Assembly (NCBI GenBank): GCA_913056125.1 | Contig: CAJXNC010000003.1 | Location: forward strand, 1 to 64,000 | Direction of reading: 5' to 3' | DNA: 64,000 bases | Source: an uncultured Altererythrobacter sp. | Lineage (GTDB): Bacteria; Pseudomonadota; Alphaproteobacteria; Sphingomonadales; Sphingomonadaceae | Shown: one piece after another, positions 37,416 to 42,228 of the stretch | Layout: each line of letters begins with the position of its first letter | Numbering within the stretch: the first letter of the stretch is position 1 | Notes under the pieces: generated by a model | What the model was told of the DNA's origin: nothing | What the model saw: the letters and a program-made list of their open reading frames with translations, nothing else | Databases searched by the model: none | Position numbers and translations under genes: made by a program

Positions 37416-37823
37416 TCAAGCCCCAAGGATGCGGGTGGCATGTTCCTGCACCAGCGCGATCATGTTGGGAATGCCCTGCGTGCGATTGGAGCTGAGCTGG
37501 TTGCGAAGCTCAAACGGTTCAAGGGCAGCGGTCACGTCCATCGCGGCGACTTCGCTTGCCGGCCGGTCCTGCACGGCGGAAATAACCAGCGCGACGATGC
37601 CCTTGGTGATCGCTGCATTGCTGTCGGCAAGGAAGTGCAGGCGTCCGTCCTGCTCGGTGGGATAGACCCAGACCTGTGCCGAACAACCGCGGACCAGCGT
37701 GGCGTCGGTCTTGAGGGGCTGCGGCATCTCTTCCAGCTCGCGGCCCAGTTCGATCAGCAGGCGATAGCGTTCATCGCCTTCGAGGAATTCATATTCTTCC
37801 AGTATGTCTTCGAGACTGCGCAT
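37416..37823 (-). CDS. sufE: Sulfur acceptor protein for iron-sulfur cluster assembly
   Basis: 135 residues. The SufE fold has the active cysteine in LVRGCSAQVWV. Flanking conserved segments are MRSLEDILEEYEFL and KGIVALVISAVQDRPASEV. It accepts persulfide sulfur from SufS-type desulfurase for Fe-S cluster building. The start ATG 37823 begins the family's conserved N-terminus. It follows the psp-type array by 25 bases and could be read through from that operon; a sulfur role within it is not evident. Confidence 0.92.
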   Translation of the reverse strand: MRSLEDILEEYEFLEGDERYRLLIELGRELEEMPQPLKTDATLVRGCSAQVWVYPTEQDGRLHFLADSNAAITKGIVALVISAVQDRPASEVAAMDVTAALEPFELRNQLSSNRTQGIPNMIALVQEHATRILGA

Positions 37824-37848: not shown

Positions 37849-38085
37849 CTACAAATCCACCCCATTGGCGATCGCTTCCAGCTTGCGGATGCGCTCCTTG
37901 AGGTCGGCGATCTCGATCCGGGCGGCTCCCTGGCGAGCTCCACCTTCGATTTCGACAGGCGCTGTGCGCATGTCCAGTTCGCGTTCCTTCAGTGCCAGCC
38001 AGCCTTGCCAGGCGCGCAGCATTGCCGCGGCCAGGATGACCAGGCCAAGCAGGGTGCAAGTGGCAATCAGCATTTGCTCGTTCAT
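37849..38085 (-). CDS. PspB-like small protein: one membrane helix plus coiled coil (array gene 5)
   Basis: 78 residues. Membrane helix about 6-27. The C-terminal coiled coil has LKERIRKLEAIANG (the LEAIAN element at about 69-74), the diverged form of the LERIVTD motif found in its neighbours. Arg/Glu-rich linker about 34-60. It is the most distal gene of the array, 15 bases after its neighbour. Function inferred only from the psp locus: inner-membrane stress sensing or PspA anchoring. Confidence 0.75.
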   Translation of the reverse strand: MNEQMLIATCTLLGLVILAAAMLRAWQGWLALKERELDMRTAPVEIEGGARQGAARIEIADLKERIRKLEAIANGVDL

Positions 38086-38100
38086 CGTTCCCTCGTTCCC

Positions 38101-38376
38101 CTATTCGTCGCGCAGCTTCTCGATTTCGGAAGACAGGCGCCTTGCCTCGCGATCATCGGTGGCGATGCGCTCGAGGACCTTGATGCGTTCGCGCAATTCC
38201 TCGACTTCACCCTTCAGACGGGCATTTTCCTCTGCATCTCCTGCCCGGCTAATGGTCTCATTGCCCATCCAGTCACGGGAGACGTTGATGCCGTTCTTGG
38301 TGTTATAGTGATGCTTCCAGGCGCCATAAATCAGTCCAGCCAGCGCAAGCAGGAAGATCATCGTCCACATTTGCAC
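38101..38376 (-). CDS. PspB-like small protein (array gene 4)
   Basis: 91 residues. Membrane helix about 5-19; the coiled coil from about 45 contains LRERIKVLERIATDDREARRL (LERIATD at 68-74) and ends SSEIEKLRDE. The GTG start at 38376 overlaps the TAG stop of the previous gene and has GGAGG 7 bases upstream; the ATG 2 codons later is less well placed. Confidence 0.8.
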   Translation of the reverse strand: MQMWTMIFLLALAGLIYGAWKHHYNTKNGINVSRDWMGNETISRAGDAEENARLKGEVEELRERIKVLERIATDDREARRLSSEIEKLRDE

Positions 38377-38672
38377 TATACTACCTCCTTCTTGGGTAGC
38401 GCGCTCGTAGCCTCGCTCCGCAAATCCTCGATTTCCTTGGCGAGACCATAATTCCCTTCGGTCACAATGCGTTCGAGATTGCGCAGGCGCTCCTCGATCT
38501 GCTGTGCCCGCTCACGCGTAATTCCGCCTTCCTCGGTCGTATTCCGCGAGCGGAATTCAAGTTCCTTTTCCTTGAACCGGATCTTGCGTTTCCAGATGCC
38601 GCCAATGGTCCCCATCAGGATCGAGAACAGCACGATCACGAAGATGAAGGACAGGATCATCTCAATGTCCAT
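38376..38672 (-). CDS. PspB-like small protein (array gene 3)
   Basis: 98 residues. Membrane helix about 5-26; basic stretch KRKIRFKEKELEFR. The coiled coil contains ERLRNLERIVTEGNYGLAKE (LERIVTE at 66-72) followed by IEDLRSE. Start and stop overlap with the flanking genes (TGATG and TAGTG), so the array is tightly coupled in translation. Confidence 0.8.
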   Translation of the reverse strand: MDIEMILSFIFVIVLFSILMGTIGGIWKRKIRFKEKELEFRSRNTTEEGGITRERAQQIEERLRNLERIVTEGNYGLAKEIEDLRSEATSALPKKEVV

Positions 38673-39013
38673 CAGTTGATCTCCTCATTGTCACGCAGGC
38701 GATCGATCTGGTGGGTCAGCTGGAAGCCGCTATCGGTCACGATCCGTTCGACATTGGCCATGCGTTCCTTGATCGCGCTGAGCTCTGCACGCAGCGAAGC
38801 ATTTTCCTGCGTCAGCATTTTCACGCGTTCCATGCTCTCGGTCGTCAAGTCTGGCTTGAGCGATTGGCCCCACATGCCTTCGAGCGGATAGCCGTTTTTG
38901 ATCTTCATTTTGGTGGAGTGGATCGAGGCGAAAGCGATCGTACCGGTGAAAGCGACGATGCCGCCGATGATCCAGGGAACCAGTCCGATCCATGCTGCGA
39001 GTTCCGGATCCAT
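38672..39013 (-). CDS. PspB-like small protein (array gene 2)
   Basis: 113 residues. Membrane helix about 9-31, then an amphipathic region and a coiled coil from about 60: IKERMANVERIVTDSGFQL (VERIVTD at 88-94) and HQIDRLRDNE. Its ATG overlaps the preceding stop by TGATG. It is longer than PspB of E. coli (74 residues). Confidence 0.8.
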   Translation of the reverse strand: MDPELAAWIGLVPWIIGGIVAFTGTIAFASIHSTKMKIKNGYPLEGMWGQSLKPDLTTESMERVKMLTQENASLRAELSAIKERMANVERIVTDSGFQLTHQIDRLRDNEEIN

Positions 39014-39327
39014 CAGGCGTTCTCCCTTCTTTCGAGGCCGAGCGGCACACCGCTTCCGGCCTCGTCTACGCGGTTCTGGTCGCGCAGCGCCTCGATCTGG
39101 GTGGCGACATCGTACCCCTTGTCGGTCACGATCCGCTCCAGCACGCGGACGCGCTGCTCCAGTTCTTGCACGTGGCTGGCATATTGCGCAGCGCGTTCGG
39201 CGGTATTCTCAGCCGTGGCGTCGACCTGCATCTGGGCGATGCGCATCTTGTGCTTGCTCCAGATGGCAACCATCGGAATGCTGCAGCCAAAGATGATCGC
39301 TATGATCGGTATCAGTTCACCAGGCAT
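39013..39327 (-). CDS. PspB-like small protein (array gene 1)
   Basis: 104 residues. Membrane helix about 4-23. The coiled coil from about 40 contains ELEQRVRVLERIVTDKGYDV (LERIVTD at 63-69) and ATQIEALRDQ. The ATG is preceded by GGGGGAA at 9 bases. It follows pspC by 25 bases and begins the run of extra genes. Confidence 0.82.
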   Translation of the reverse strand: MPGELIPIIAIIFGCSIPMVAIWSKHKMRIAQMQVDATAENTAERAAQYASHVQELEQRVRVLERIVTDKGYDVATQIEALRDQNRVDEAGSGVPLGLERRENA

Positions 39328-39352
39328 TTGAATCGTTCCCCCTCGGTTGGTC

Positions 39353-39724
39353 TCAGCGCAGCCGCTCGATTTCGGCCGAAAGACGCTGGTTGCTGGCGAC
39401 ATAATGATGTTCCACATTGGCCAGGCGCCGGTCGATATCGCGGAACTGCGCGCGGATTTCGCGGGCAGTACGCTTTGGGCTCTGCCGGACACCCTGCCAG
39501 TATTTCTGCTCAGCCTGGTCGACATAGAGATGCTGCGGCTTCTTGCTCGCAAAGATGCCCATCAGCAGGTAGAGTGGAATGCCGAAGGAAGTCCCGATCA
39601 GCAGGACGAAGGCAATTCTCCACCAGATGGCATCGATGCCGGTATAGTCCTCAAGACCCGCGCATACGCCCATCAAGTAGCCATTTTTCTTGTCGCGATA
39701 GAATTTCGTCCGTTCGCTGACCAT
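39353..39724 (-). CDS. pspC: Phage-shock protein C with long coiled-coil tail
   Basis: 123 residues. PspC domain about 5-60: FYRDKKNGYLMGVCAGLEDYTGIDAIWWRIAFV, with a membrane segment about 35-58. The C-terminal tail (75-123) is a coiled coil ending DRRLANVEHHYVASNQRLSAEIERLR. This resembles, in place and spacing, the RLxxLERIVTDxxxxLxxEIExLRD module of the five array genes. Start 2 bases after the pspB stop. Confidence 0.92.
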   Translation of the reverse strand: MVSERTKFYRDKKNGYLMGVCAGLEDYTGIDAIWWRIAFVLLIGTSFGIPLYLLMGIFASKKPQHLYVDQAEQKYWQGVRQSPKRTAREIRAQFRDIDRRLANVEHHYVASNQRLSAEIERLR

Positions 39725-39726
39725 AT

Positions 39727-40017
39727 TCAGGCCCCCTTCTTTTCGGCGAGCAGGCGATCGAGCTCGCGCAGCTTCTGGTTATCGACTTCCTGGTCCGCGA
39801 CGATGCGTGCCGGCTGGAAGTCCGGGCTGTCATCGGCGACCAGGCGCTCGACCGTGTCCATCCTCTCGTCGAGCCGTTTGGCGAGCTGGTAGAGCTCTTC
39901 CAGCAGGACCTCGTCATCATTGGTGATGGTCGCGGCGGTCTTCCACTTGGTAATGTAGTGGAGGATGATCCACGGAAGCCCGATAAAGATTGCGGGAATT
40001 ACGATAAGTTCTTCCAC
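39727..40017 (-). CDS. pspB: Phage-shock protein B
   Basis: 96 residues. An N-terminal membrane helix (about 3-21, IPAIFIGLPWIILHYITKW) is followed by a cytoplasmic coiled coil, EELYQLAKRLDERMDTVERLVADD. The ERMDTVERLVADDSPDF stretch is close to the conserved PspB end. A C-terminal extension of about 25 residues (QEVDNQKLRELDRLLAEKK) is absent in E. coli PspB. Between pspA and pspC, as in other psp operons. Confidence 0.92.
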   Translation of the reverse strand: MEELIVIPAIFIGLPWIILHYITKWKTAATITNDDEVLLEELYQLAKRLDERMDTVERLVADDSPDFQPARIVADQEVDNQKLRELDRLLAEKKGA

Positions 40018-40020
40018 GAA

Positions 40021-40710
40021 TTAGCCCTCCTGCTTGTCTTCTTTGCCGCCCTTGCCCAGGGCGCGTTTCATTTCTTCGAGTTCCTCGTCGACCTTGTCCG
40101 AACCCTCGAGCGCGGCAAATTCGTCTGCCAGACTCGGCGGATTGTTCTGGATGCCCAGCGCTTCGGCGCGGCCTTCGGCATAATCGACGCGGCGTTCGAG
40201 CTGGTCGAACTTGGTCAGAGCCTCATCGACACGCTCATTGGTCATCAGGCTGCGCAGCTTGACCCGGTTTTCCGCACTTTCGAGGCGTGCAGCTATCTGG
40301 CTCTGGCGGCTGCGGGCTTCGCGCAAGCGGTTCTGCAGCTTGGCGATGTCCTTCTCATAGGCGCGCAGCGCATCGTCGAGCACGGCGATTTCGGTCTTCA
40401 ACTGGTCGGACATCTCGCCGGCCTTGCGCTTTTCCACCAGCGCGGCGCGGGCGAGGTCTTCGCGATCCTTTGACAGCGCCAGCTGCGCCTTTTCCGCCCA
40501 GTCGGACTGGAGCTTGTCCAGCTTGACCGTGTGCCGATGCATTTCCTTCTGATCGGCAATGGTGCGGGCTGCGCTTGCGCGAACCTCGACCAGGGTTTCT
40601 TCCATCTCGAGGATGATCATGCGGATCATCTTGGACGGGTCATCTGCCTGGTCGAGCAGCTCGTTGAAGTTGGCGGCAATAATGTCTCGGGTACGGCTGA
40701 AAATTCCCAT
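40021..40710 (-). CDS. pspA: Phage-shock protein A, ESCRT-III/IM30 family
   Basis: 229 residues starting MGIFSRTRDIIAANFNELLD, the canonical PspA start, with GGAG 8 bases upstream. A long helical hairpin covers about 25-185, including SKMIRMIILEMEETLVEVRAS and an acidic, Gly-rich tail. It binds the stressed inner membrane and holds PspF inactive in other bacteria. The frame is open for 63 more codons upstream to a GTG at 40899 that overlaps the stop of the small membrane gene (GTGA), so a longer form with a coiled-coil-rich extension is possible. Confidence 0.92.
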   Translation of the reverse strand: MGIFSRTRDIIAANFNELLDQADDPSKMIRMIILEMEETLVEVRASAARTIADQKEMHRHTVKLDKLQSDWAEKAQLALSKDREDLARAALVEKRKAGEMSDQLKTEIAVLDDALRAYEKDIAKLQNRLREARSRQSQIAARLESAENRVKLRSLMTNERVDEALTKFDQLERRVDYAEGRAEALGIQNNPPSLADEFAALEGSDKVDEELEEMKRALGKGGKEDKQEG

Positions 40711-40895
40711 CAAGGGCACTCCGTGAAGATTGGATTCGATATCGAACGCGAAAAAACCTTTGTCGCGCTTCGGCTCGCCTGAGGTCGCACCCGGCAGCGG
40801 GCTGGTCCGCAGGCGCTCGATCTCGCGATCGAGGCGCGACGCGGTATCGTCCTTTGCGGACTCGACCGGCGTCAAGGAATTTTCGGTTTCTCGCT

Positions 40896-41051
40896 TCACG
40901 CCAGTTCCACCAGCGACAGCGCAGCGACCTCCTGGTCGAACGGCGCGATGGAACTCTGCGAGAGCGCGTAGAAGTTGAACGCGATCATGGCAGCGATGCT
41001 CACCAGGGCCGAAAGGCCGACCTTGCTGGCAAAAAAGCGTTGATCGAACAT
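40896..41051 (-). CDS. 51-residue small membrane protein, first gene of the psp operon
   Basis: MFDQRFFASKVGLSALVSIA and so on: a short basic start, one hydrophobic helix (about 12-29), then a short tail ending SLVELA. GGGAG lies 7 bases upstream. It sits between the consensus sigma-54 promoter and pspA. A tiny membrane protein of the same kind precedes the other PspC-domain operon at 27504. A small stress-induced membrane peptide, possibly acting with PspA or PspC, is inferred. Confidence 0.8.
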   Translation of the reverse strand: MFDQRFFASKVGLSALVSIAAMIAFNFYALSQSSIAPFDQEVAALSLVELA

Positions 41052-41086
41052 TGTGTAACTCCCAATTTCCTAATTGCCCTGTTCAA

Positions 41087-41102
41087 TGCAAGTGGCGTGC
41101 CA
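41087..41102 (-). promoter_or_regulatory. Consensus sigma-54 promoter of the psp operon
   Basis: On the minus strand the site reads TGGCACGCCACTTGCA, a perfect TGGCACG-N4-TTGCA with GG and GC 10 bases apart. The predicted start is about 12 bases further, 20-30 bases before the small membrane gene. The adjacent divergent pspF encodes the matching enhancer-binding activator. Confidence 0.9.
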
Positions 41103-41202: not shown

Positions 41203-42228
41203 ATGGAGCGGGAAAACCAGTTCATCGGACAGTCCGGGGCTTTCCTCGATGCGGTCGAGCGCGCCAGCCGTGCTGCCCCCATGGCGCGCCCCGTCCTTGT
41301 GATCGGCGAGAGGGGCACAGGTAAAGAACTGATCGCCGAACGACTTCACCGCCTGTCGGACCGCTGGGAAGAGCCGCTGGTCGTCATGAATTGCGCGGCG
41401 CTGCCCGAAACTCTGATCGAGGCGGAGCTGTTTGGCCATGAGGCGGGCGCCTTTACCGGCGCGACCAAGGCGCGTGTCGGACGGTTCGAGGAGGCTGACG
41501 GCGGTACACTTTTCCTCGACGAGTTGGGAACGCTTTCCATGGGCGCGCAGGAGCGCCTGTTGCGCGCAGTTGAATATGGCGAAGTCACGCGGATCGGTTC
41601 CTCGCGACCCATGCGCGTCGATGTTCGTATTGTCGCTGCAACCAATGAAGACCTGCCCAAGCTGGCACGGCAGGGCCGATTCCGCGCCGATTTGCTCGAC
41701 CGGCTCAGTTTCGAGGTCATCACTCTTCCGCCGCTGCGCGTGCGTGAAGGTGATATTTCCGTGCTCTCCGACTATTTCGGTCGACGCATGGCAGCCGAGC
41801 TCGGCTGGGCGGAATGGCCGGGTTTCGCCACTCACGTTTCGCAGGCGCTCGAAGACCATCCGTGGCCAGGCAATGTGCGCGAACTACGCAATGTCGTTGA
41901 GCGTGCGGTTTATCGCTGGGAGGACTGGAGCCAGCCCATCGGCCATGTCGTCTTCGATCCGTTCGATTCACCGTGGAAGCCCGCCCAGCCAGTGCGGTCC
42001 GACGATAGGAGCAAGCGGGAAGGGCCGCGCACCGAAGTGCCCGTGGTCGCGCAGACGGACTTTTCGCATGTGGAGGATCTGCGCGAAGCGGTGGATGCGC
42101 ATGAGAGGGCTATTGTAGAGCATGCACTTGGTCGTCACCGGTGGAACCAGCGCCAGACCGCGAAGGCGTTAGGCCTCTCCTACGACCAGCTGCGTCATTG
42201 TATCAAGAAACACGGCCTGACCGAATAG
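41203..42228 (+). CDS. pspF: Sigma-54-dependent activator PspF
   Basis: 341 residues. There is no receiver domain; the AAA+ domain starts at about 10: FIGQSGAFLDAVERASRAAP, Walker A GERGTGKELIAERL, the GAFTGA loop (GHEAGAFTGATKARVGRFEE) that contacts sigma-54, Walker B GGTLFLDELGTL and Arg fingers near GRFRADLLDRLSFEVI. A C-terminal Fis-type DNA-binding helix (RHRWNQRQTAKALGLSYDQLRHCIKKHGL) follows. PspF is normally held by PspA. Divergent from the psp operon, the classic arrangement. Confidence 0.95.
   Translation: MERENQFIGQSGAFLDAVERASRAAPMARPVLVIGERGTGKELIAERLHRLSDRWEEPLVVMNCAALPETLIEAELFGHEAGAFTGATKARVGRFEEADGGTLFLDELGTLSMGAQERLLRAVEYGEVTRIGSSRPMRVDVRIVAATNEDLPKLARQGRFRADLLDRLSFEVITLPPLRVREGDISVLSDYFGRRMAAELGWAEWPGFATHVSQALEDHPWPGNVRELRNVVERAVYRWEDWSQPIGHVVFDPFDSPWKPAQPVRSDDRSKREGPRTEVPVVAQTDFSHVEDLREAVDAHERAIVEHALGRHRWNQRQTAKALGLSYDQLRHCIKKHGLTE

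Follow-up and report, generated by a model that had tools for sequence, protein, structure and literature searches.

The operon and the question

Why does a phage-shock (psp) operon carry five further small membrane genes behind pspC, and what might their products do? The question is raised by a locus in the window, which is the whole 64,000-nucleotide stretch of contig CAJXNC010000003.1 (uncultured Altererythrobacter sp.) that was analysed. On the minus strand, a sigma-54 consensus site stands before a run made up of a tiny membrane gene, pspA, pspB, pspC, the five small genes o1 to o5, and then sufE (Table 1). A first-pass annotation had reported this run up to o5 and read the five genes as an array of divergent PspB-like paralogs, which might act as membrane-stress sensors or as a hetero-oligomeric PspA anchor not known to have been described. 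The run was confirmed where it had been placed, and pspA, pspB and pspC all exceed their NCBIfam cut-offs.

Kinship of the array proteins

Each of the o1-o5 products consists of one membrane helix and a coiled coil, in agreement with the first-pass annotation. The recurring module ascribed to all five is complete in o1-o4; o5 carries only the first half (LKERIRKLEAIA) and is without the EIExLR end. The tail end is indeed common to PspC, which closes with LSAEIERLR, and the overlapping starts and stops were as described (TGATG, TGATG and TAGTG at the array junctions).

For comparison across genomes, the window's family is the family as coded in the genome sample, with the window genome counted in. 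A first set covers 46 of 64 same-family genomes (47 loci, one genome having two) and a held-out set the remaining 18. Louvain clustering of the array proteins from the 47 loci gave five subfamilies (A-E) and one singleton. A and B were each found at 44 of these loci, C at 43, D at 40 and E at 32; the order in the window is A-D-A-B-C. The subfamilies differ mainly in the helix and the linker. D has 17 invariant columns among 16 sequences and the linker motif GYPLEGMWGQ, and E keeps the conserved linker motif AKHGYPLEDEWGG.

A hidden Markov model (HMM) of the tail was seeded from o1-o4 and iterated, PspC tails coming in during iteration. The recurrence of the module is not chance: downstream of pspA, this model matched the coding strand 279 times at E≤1e-3, with matches in 79 of 81 loci, and the reverse strand gave no match at E<1. 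An array-only HMM, built from 189 proteins with PspB and PspC sorted out, matched 26 of 29 PspB proteins of other families and 44 of 49 same-family PspC proteins at E<0.05, and 0 of 300 reversed or shuffled controls. In profile-profile comparison, A, B and E matched canonical (other-family) PspB at 96%, 96% and 94% along nearly the whole protein, and D more weakly at 62%. Against the same-family PspC tail the values were 95% for D, 94% for E, 90% for B and 78% for A, as compared with 1-3% for the control against the PspA coiled coil. The subfamilies matched one another at 92-100%, except C versus D and E (4-24%). A helix profile can match its own reversal, as reversed A, D and C matched their own forward profiles at 36%, 45% and 12%, respectively; all other reversed comparisons stayed at or below 10% (reversed D against E). 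When 49 array proteins (A, B, D and E only) were scanned against NCBIfam at E≤0.05, PspC (28) and PspB (22) were the top families, and the next unrelated family matched 5.

A generic coiled-coil origin of A, B, D and E is rejected by the reversed, shuffled and PspA controls, of which the reversed and shuffled ones kept composition and PspA was the sole unrelated coiled-coil family used. Judged from these profiles, A, B, D and E are tied to PspB and/or the C-terminal tail of PspC, and the only links of C, the subfamily of o5, run through A and B. The first-pass annotation would have been refuted by profiles that showed nothing more than generic coiled-coil likeness; homology was found for A, B, D and E and was not convincing for C. 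Its term PspB-like is too narrow for the array, because D is closer to the tail of PspC than to canonical PspB and C is linked weakly.

Conservation, selection and topology

How widespread is the array? PspA was found in 134 of 147 sampled genomes of the order, 64 of these in the window's family, and no same-family genome of this sample was without it. Array genes were present at the main psp locus in all 64, which bears out the reading as divergent rather than decayed paralogs and shows that the array is not confined to the window genome. In the first set, arrays had five genes at 18 loci, six at 11, four at 9, seven at 4, three at 3 and two at 1, with one gene in a secondary copy (L074). The held-out loci had 2 to 6 array genes each; every array match in this set was read, and no PspC was among them. 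The commonest gene orders in the first set were EDABC (10), AEDABC (7) and ADABC (4), the window being among the last. Up to 9 array genes were seen in a collection of 74 named loci. These loci were picked by the D profile, so that arrays at 74 of 74 are uninformative on prevalence. The D profile found at least 559 relatives among named sequences; the best 80 belonged to Erythrobacteraceae, other Sphingomonadales, or metagenome-assembled genomes named only to class or phylum, and the best named match among those listed was Alteraurantiacibacter aestuarii.

Outside the family, the psp loci examined were mostly plain pspABC. Within the order, 35 of 70 such genomes with PspA were examined. In one family, f8, 7 of 15 loci have a single B-type gene behind pspBC (two identified by reading and five by HMM, three of those five also being read), and a transmembrane (TM) gene with a PspB-type tail was found by eye at L111; no array genes were found in the other 27 genomes. 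Some TM genes with a PspB-type tail escape the tail HMMs, as did those at L111 and the second one at L095, which were spotted by eye, and gene-by-gene reading covered six of a subset of 20 loci, so single extra genes may be undercounted. In a class-wide sample of 240 genomes, 18 genomes outside the family had PspA over the cut-off (19 loci). Extra TM-plus-tail genes were seen only at L095 among the 19 loci read, one PspC-like and one PspB-like. The array profile, with at most 21 candidates scored in most genomes, matched in 11 of the 240 genomes, 8 of them outside the family, and some of these matches were PspB, PspC or an L095 gene. The single strong case outside the family was genome G327, with a B-type gene and a second small gene away from the psp locus.

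Several matches and loci were set apart on reading. The A matches at L238-L240 (outside the family) are PspB: L238 and L240 were read (HYATEMK), and L239 was assigned by the same place and score. L097, L101, L102, L106 and L108, also outside the family, had been candidate array genes and are PspC by reading. In G327 (L193) the two small genes, the second of TM/coiled-coil type, were read close to a dut-like gene, with pspA some 80 kb away. L074, the second psp locus of G135, is pspA-pspC-C, where pspB or further array genes were not found. At L043 (G053), only one A and one B gene were found behind pspA and no PspC tail was detected, an apparent reduction. A short extra PspC-type gene without a tail occurs at L034, L087, L091, L226, L234 and L237, before the main pspC (downstream of pspB) at L034 and after it at the other five.

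The array is under purifying selection. The pooled ratio of nonsynonymous to synonymous substitution rates (dN/dS), calculated over distinct loci, was 0.505 for A (35 pairs), 0.369 for B (33), 0.293 for C (32), 0.241 for D (35) and 0.364 for E (10), with 0.126 for pspA (35). Adjacent A-A pairs shared a mean of 36 identical residues (24 pairs) as compared with 28 for non-adjacent ones (83 pairs), five genomes being present twice in this comparison, and two neighbouring array genes at L032 have identical last 18 residues. A hydrophobic stretch (Kyte-Doolittle value ≥1.6) was present in 223 of 232 array proteins, and 227 of the 232 had an excess of Lys/Arg behind the helix, as in N-out/C-in proteins. 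Neighbouring genes overlapped by 1 or 4 nucleotides in 78 of 239 pairs, with starts chosen by script.

The PspA extension and the tail module elsewhere

The extension of PspA is the more surprising part of the locus. In the window, the pspA frame holds a further LDREIERLR upstream of the usual PspA start, on which the first-pass annotation is silent. The pattern [LIF]xxE[IVL]ExLR occurs only in PspC and the pspA extension among 97 coding-like open reading frames of at least 120 amino acids (25796 residues), a size limit that excludes the shorter array genes. Upstream of MGIF, the pspA frame is open and contains E[ILV]Ex[LIVM]R at 80 distinct loci, drawn from 20 of the 47 in the first set and 65 of the 74 named ones. 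Among the remaining 9 named loci, the 6 evaluated have variants of the box. The consensus of the box is SR-L-D-x-E-I-E-x-L-R-R-S-P-T-P-T. A slightly different pattern was used for the held-out set and fitted 7 of 18 loci; two more have a decayed form and one has a partial form. The rest of the same-family loci are without the box.

Is the extension translated? The pooled dN/dS of the extension (35 pairs, distinct loci) was 0.437 in frame, and shifting the frame raised it to 1.145 and 1.458; the low value in frame only argues for translation. GGAG stands within 15 nucleotides before MGIF at 80 of 80 distinct boxed loci, which makes an internal pspA start likely, and a long and a short PspA are probably made from one gene. 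An HMM of the tiny upstream gene found relatives at 84 distinct loci, drawn from 19 of the 47 same-family loci and 69 of the 74 named ones, and at none of 34 loci outside the family. At 52 of these 84, the stop codon of the tiny gene overlaps an ATG or GTG whose frame is that of pspA and stays open to MGIF. Among the tiny genes inspected, the C-terminus is mostly VELA or VEIA. The extension in Erythrobacteraceae-like genomes is conserved, in frame and apparently translated, and pspA appears to have gained a short piece of the PspB/PspC tail in one branch. From about nine residues of likeness, we infer that the box may act like a tail tip.

One further strong tail match (E 7.6e-14) lies on another contig of the window genome, at C10:98990-99388 (L192:2991-3389). 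It is a protein of 132 amino acids with a CxxC...CxxC head, which gives weak matches to DUF6487 and zinc ribbons below cut-off, and a full tail. Near full-length relatives of this zinc-ribbon-like tail protein were found in 3 of 79 family genomes, the window genome included. The gene directly upstream (L192:1174-2949) has a TIR-like start (DIFISYSSSD) and may encode a protein with that domain.

Features of the locus

Table 1. Features of the psp locus in the window
Feature	Positions	Strand	Basis or remark
pspF, divergent sigma-54 activator	41203..42228	+	TIGR02974, 478 bits vs cut-off 443.55
sigma-54 promoter-like site, TGGCACG-N4-TTGCA = TGGCACGCCACTTGCA	41087..41102	-	motif scan
tiny single-TM gene, 51 amino acids	40896..41051	-	TGA overlaps upstream pspA GTG (GTGA)
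in-frame N-terminal pspA extension, 63 codons, start GTG 40899	40711..40899	-	dN/dS by frame
SRLDREIERLRTSP box inside pspA extension, resembles PspC/array tail tip	40798..40839	-	
pspA, usual short start ATG 40710, GGAG upstream	40021..40710	-	TIGR02977, 278 bits vs cut-off 243
pspB	39727..40017	-	TIGR02976, 90.3 bits vs cut-off 51.7
pspC, C-terminal end LSAEIERLR	39353..39724	-	TIGR02978, 109.3 bits vs cut-off 104
array gene o1, subfamily A (proximal)	39013..39327	-	
array gene o2, subfamily D, KIKNGYPLEGMWGQ motif behind TM helix	38672..39013	-	
array gene o3, subfamily A (distal)	38376..38672	-	
array gene o4, subfamily B	38101..38376	-	
array gene o5, subfamily C, half module only	37849..38085	-	
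sufE, neighbour outside array, 25-nucleotide gap after o5	37416..37823	-	PF02657

The divergent pspF, the sigma-54 site and pspABC in one run place the locus among the psp operons of the sigma-54/PspF type. The pspF profile scan began at 41209, and the ATG at 41203 was taken from reading the sequence. Of 47 same-family loci, 32 have a sigma-54-like site in the 700 nucleotides upstream of pspA; such a site occurs at 3 of them in the 2300 nucleotides downstream of the gene, and at 2 when the opposite strand of these 2300 nucleotides is scanned. Between 37300 and 41300, no terminator-like sites were found on the minus strand, and a sigma-70 scan found none versus 1.2 expected. A SufE motif lies on the same strand within 4.5 kb downstream of pspA at 39 of 47 same-family loci, and a SufE-like gene was also read after pspC at L090, which belongs to another family.

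Possible roles of the array

How would five additional tails act in the phage-shock response? Yersinia has a membrane complex of PspB with PspC. When the system is on, the C-terminal cytoplasmic domain of PspC binds PspA and frees PspF (PMC5596341). In E. coli, PspA binding needs a putative leucine zipper in the C-terminal region of PspC (PMC3068692). By analogy, co-encoded proteins with this tail would best be read as extra PspC/PspB partners and docking sites for PspA. The explanation we favour, by a modest degree, is a modular membrane platform of the PspB/PspC type, a mixed complex that would dock PspA with a tunable threshold. The five genes would be paralogs, probably co-transcribed with pspABC, each encoding one N-out/C-in membrane helix and the cytoplasmic coiled-coil tail common to PspB and PspC; tandem duplication would have led to the five subfamilies in their largely fixed order. 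Most likely the products would assemble with PspB and PspC into one mixed complex in the membrane. The tails would pair among themselves in resting cells; under membrane stress, freed tails would bind PspA, releasing PspF and holding PspA at the membrane. More tails would mean more docking sites and a tunable threshold, and in this lineage the extended PspA, which would bring a tail tip of its own, could become a competitor for these sites. The sequence data suggest an enlarged set of membrane docking parts for the phage-shock response in sphingomonads.

Several observations weigh against this explanation. All of o1-o5 fall below the curated cut-offs of PspB and PspC: o1 scores 19.9 bits for PspB versus 51.7, the others being lower or unreported, and tail-only matches to PspC give about 18-23 bits versus 104. 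The best matches below cut-off were o1 to PspB (E 7e-4) and o2 and o3 to the PspC tail (4e-4 and 7e-5). The Pfam PspB model matches 9 of 49 array proteins, no more than bZIP does. At E<0.05 the array-only HMM finds only 7 of 31 other-family PspC and 15 of 41 same-family PspB proteins, and B and E match same-family PspB at only 28% in profile-profile comparison. Subfamily C is without the tail tip, and its matches to PspB (14%) and PspC (15%, and 0% for same-family PspC) are no better than the 12% of C against its own reversal. AlphaFold2 predicts mostly plain helices for o2 (D) and o3 (A), with predicted template modelling scores of 0.32 and 0.28. A search of solved structures with the array profile was uninformative, the matches being generic coiled coils (best E 0.0084). 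In E. coli, the PspB-PspC contact maps to the membrane region, and two PspC topologies are proposed, with the C-terminus periplasmic or switching (PMC3068692); the C-in orientation is thus unsettled even for PspC.

Could the array proteins instead be separate sensors, each helix and linker reading a different membrane signal that the tail relays to PspC/PspA? The concentration of differences in helix and linker, the linker motifs of D (GYPLEGMWGQ) and E (AKHGYPLEDEWGG), the invariant columns of D, and the order and identity preserved across genera would all fit. However, no ligand-binding domain was seen, the part outside the membrane is very short, and A, B, C, D or E is missing from some loci; we regard this role as unlikely. 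A neutral ratchet, in which duplication of a self-pairing coiled-coil protein yields a mixed complex whose parts are mutually needed without any new function, is in line with the closer likeness of adjacent A-A pairs and with copy numbers of 2 to 9 per main locus, but dN/dS values of 0.24-0.51 and the conserved positions peculiar to each of the five subfamilies make it rather improbable. That unrelated small coiled-coil membrane proteins sit in the operon by chance is very improbable. The lack of a convincing PspB or PspC profile match for o5/C and the low-scoring generic families in Pfam, such as bZIP, speak for chance; the controls, the NCBIfam ranking of PspC and PspB, and the mutual relatedness of the subfamilies, except C versus D and E, speak against it. 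On these profiles, this explanation is largely refuted for A, B, D and E and remains in part for C.

A wider reading, which we offer tentatively, takes the tail as a portable docking tag carried by PspC, by up to 9 single-helix proteins and by the soluble zinc-ribbon-like protein, with its tip grafted before PspA; the long PspA would then compete with PspC and the array tails for one surface and cap or brake PspA assembly at the membrane. Most work on how PspB and PspC make PspA switch partners has dealt with a single PspB and a single PspC. Where a family has multiplied and diversified the tail while keeping the gene order, its sequences form a natural alignment that shows which parts of the tail are indispensable, and the tail tip on PspA offers a testable case of a dual-start PspA. 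Families for the array proteins would also help annotation, because all array genes of the window score below the curated family cut-offs.

Comparison with known systems

The first-pass annotation considered the array undescribed. This holds in part: Ravi et al. 2024 (PMC11237479) reported psp operons with duplicated PspB genes and a fusion of PspC with a divergent PspB, giving AOL22920.1 as an example of an extra PspB-type gene, whereas the ordered five-subfamily system was not found in print in the sources accessible to us. Their report agrees with ours on extra PspB-type operon genes and on a PspC tail that can be PspB-like; in its accessible text it is one line, without subfamilies, order, selection or the PspA extension. 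The words sphingomon and Erythrobacter are absent from the main text of that paper, and sphingomon and alphaproteobacteria from that of a 2022 survey (PMC9239133). In Zymomonas, pspA, pspB and pspC are induced, the neighbour ZMO1062 is called hypothetical or pspD, and the psp genes reported are ZMO1062-1065 only (PMC3495753, PMC8645129). Beyond Ravi et al. 2024, the literature accessible to us yielded nothing on sphingomonad psp arrays or an N-terminally extended PspA.

The signature HYxTxW after the TM helix is typical of PspB and was seen in PspB read at loci outside the family. Array proteins share with PspB (PF06667/TIGR02976) one TM helix and a coiled coil ending in R-x-x-h-E-x-h-h; they differ in scoring below its cut-off and, for o1-o5, in the absence by reading of HYxTxW behind the TM helix. 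The HYxTxW pattern was also used to sort genes in the wider set, where it is no independent test. With the C-terminal tail of PspC (TIGR02978, about 72-121) they share the coiled coil, the VTSD/VTD break and the EIExLR-type helix, but a single TM helix takes the place of the two-helix domain. L095, from another alphaproteobacterial family, likewise has TM-plus-tail genes after pspABC, one of PspC type and one of PspB type; it has two genes only, much closer to the parent tails, and looks like an early or separate case. Compared with pspF-pspABC of E. coli and Yersinia, the locus shares the divergent pspF, the sigma-54 site, the order pspA-pspB-pspC and scores above the NCBIfam cut-offs; what the window adds is a tiny TM gene in front, five TM-plus-tail genes behind, and the extension of pspA.

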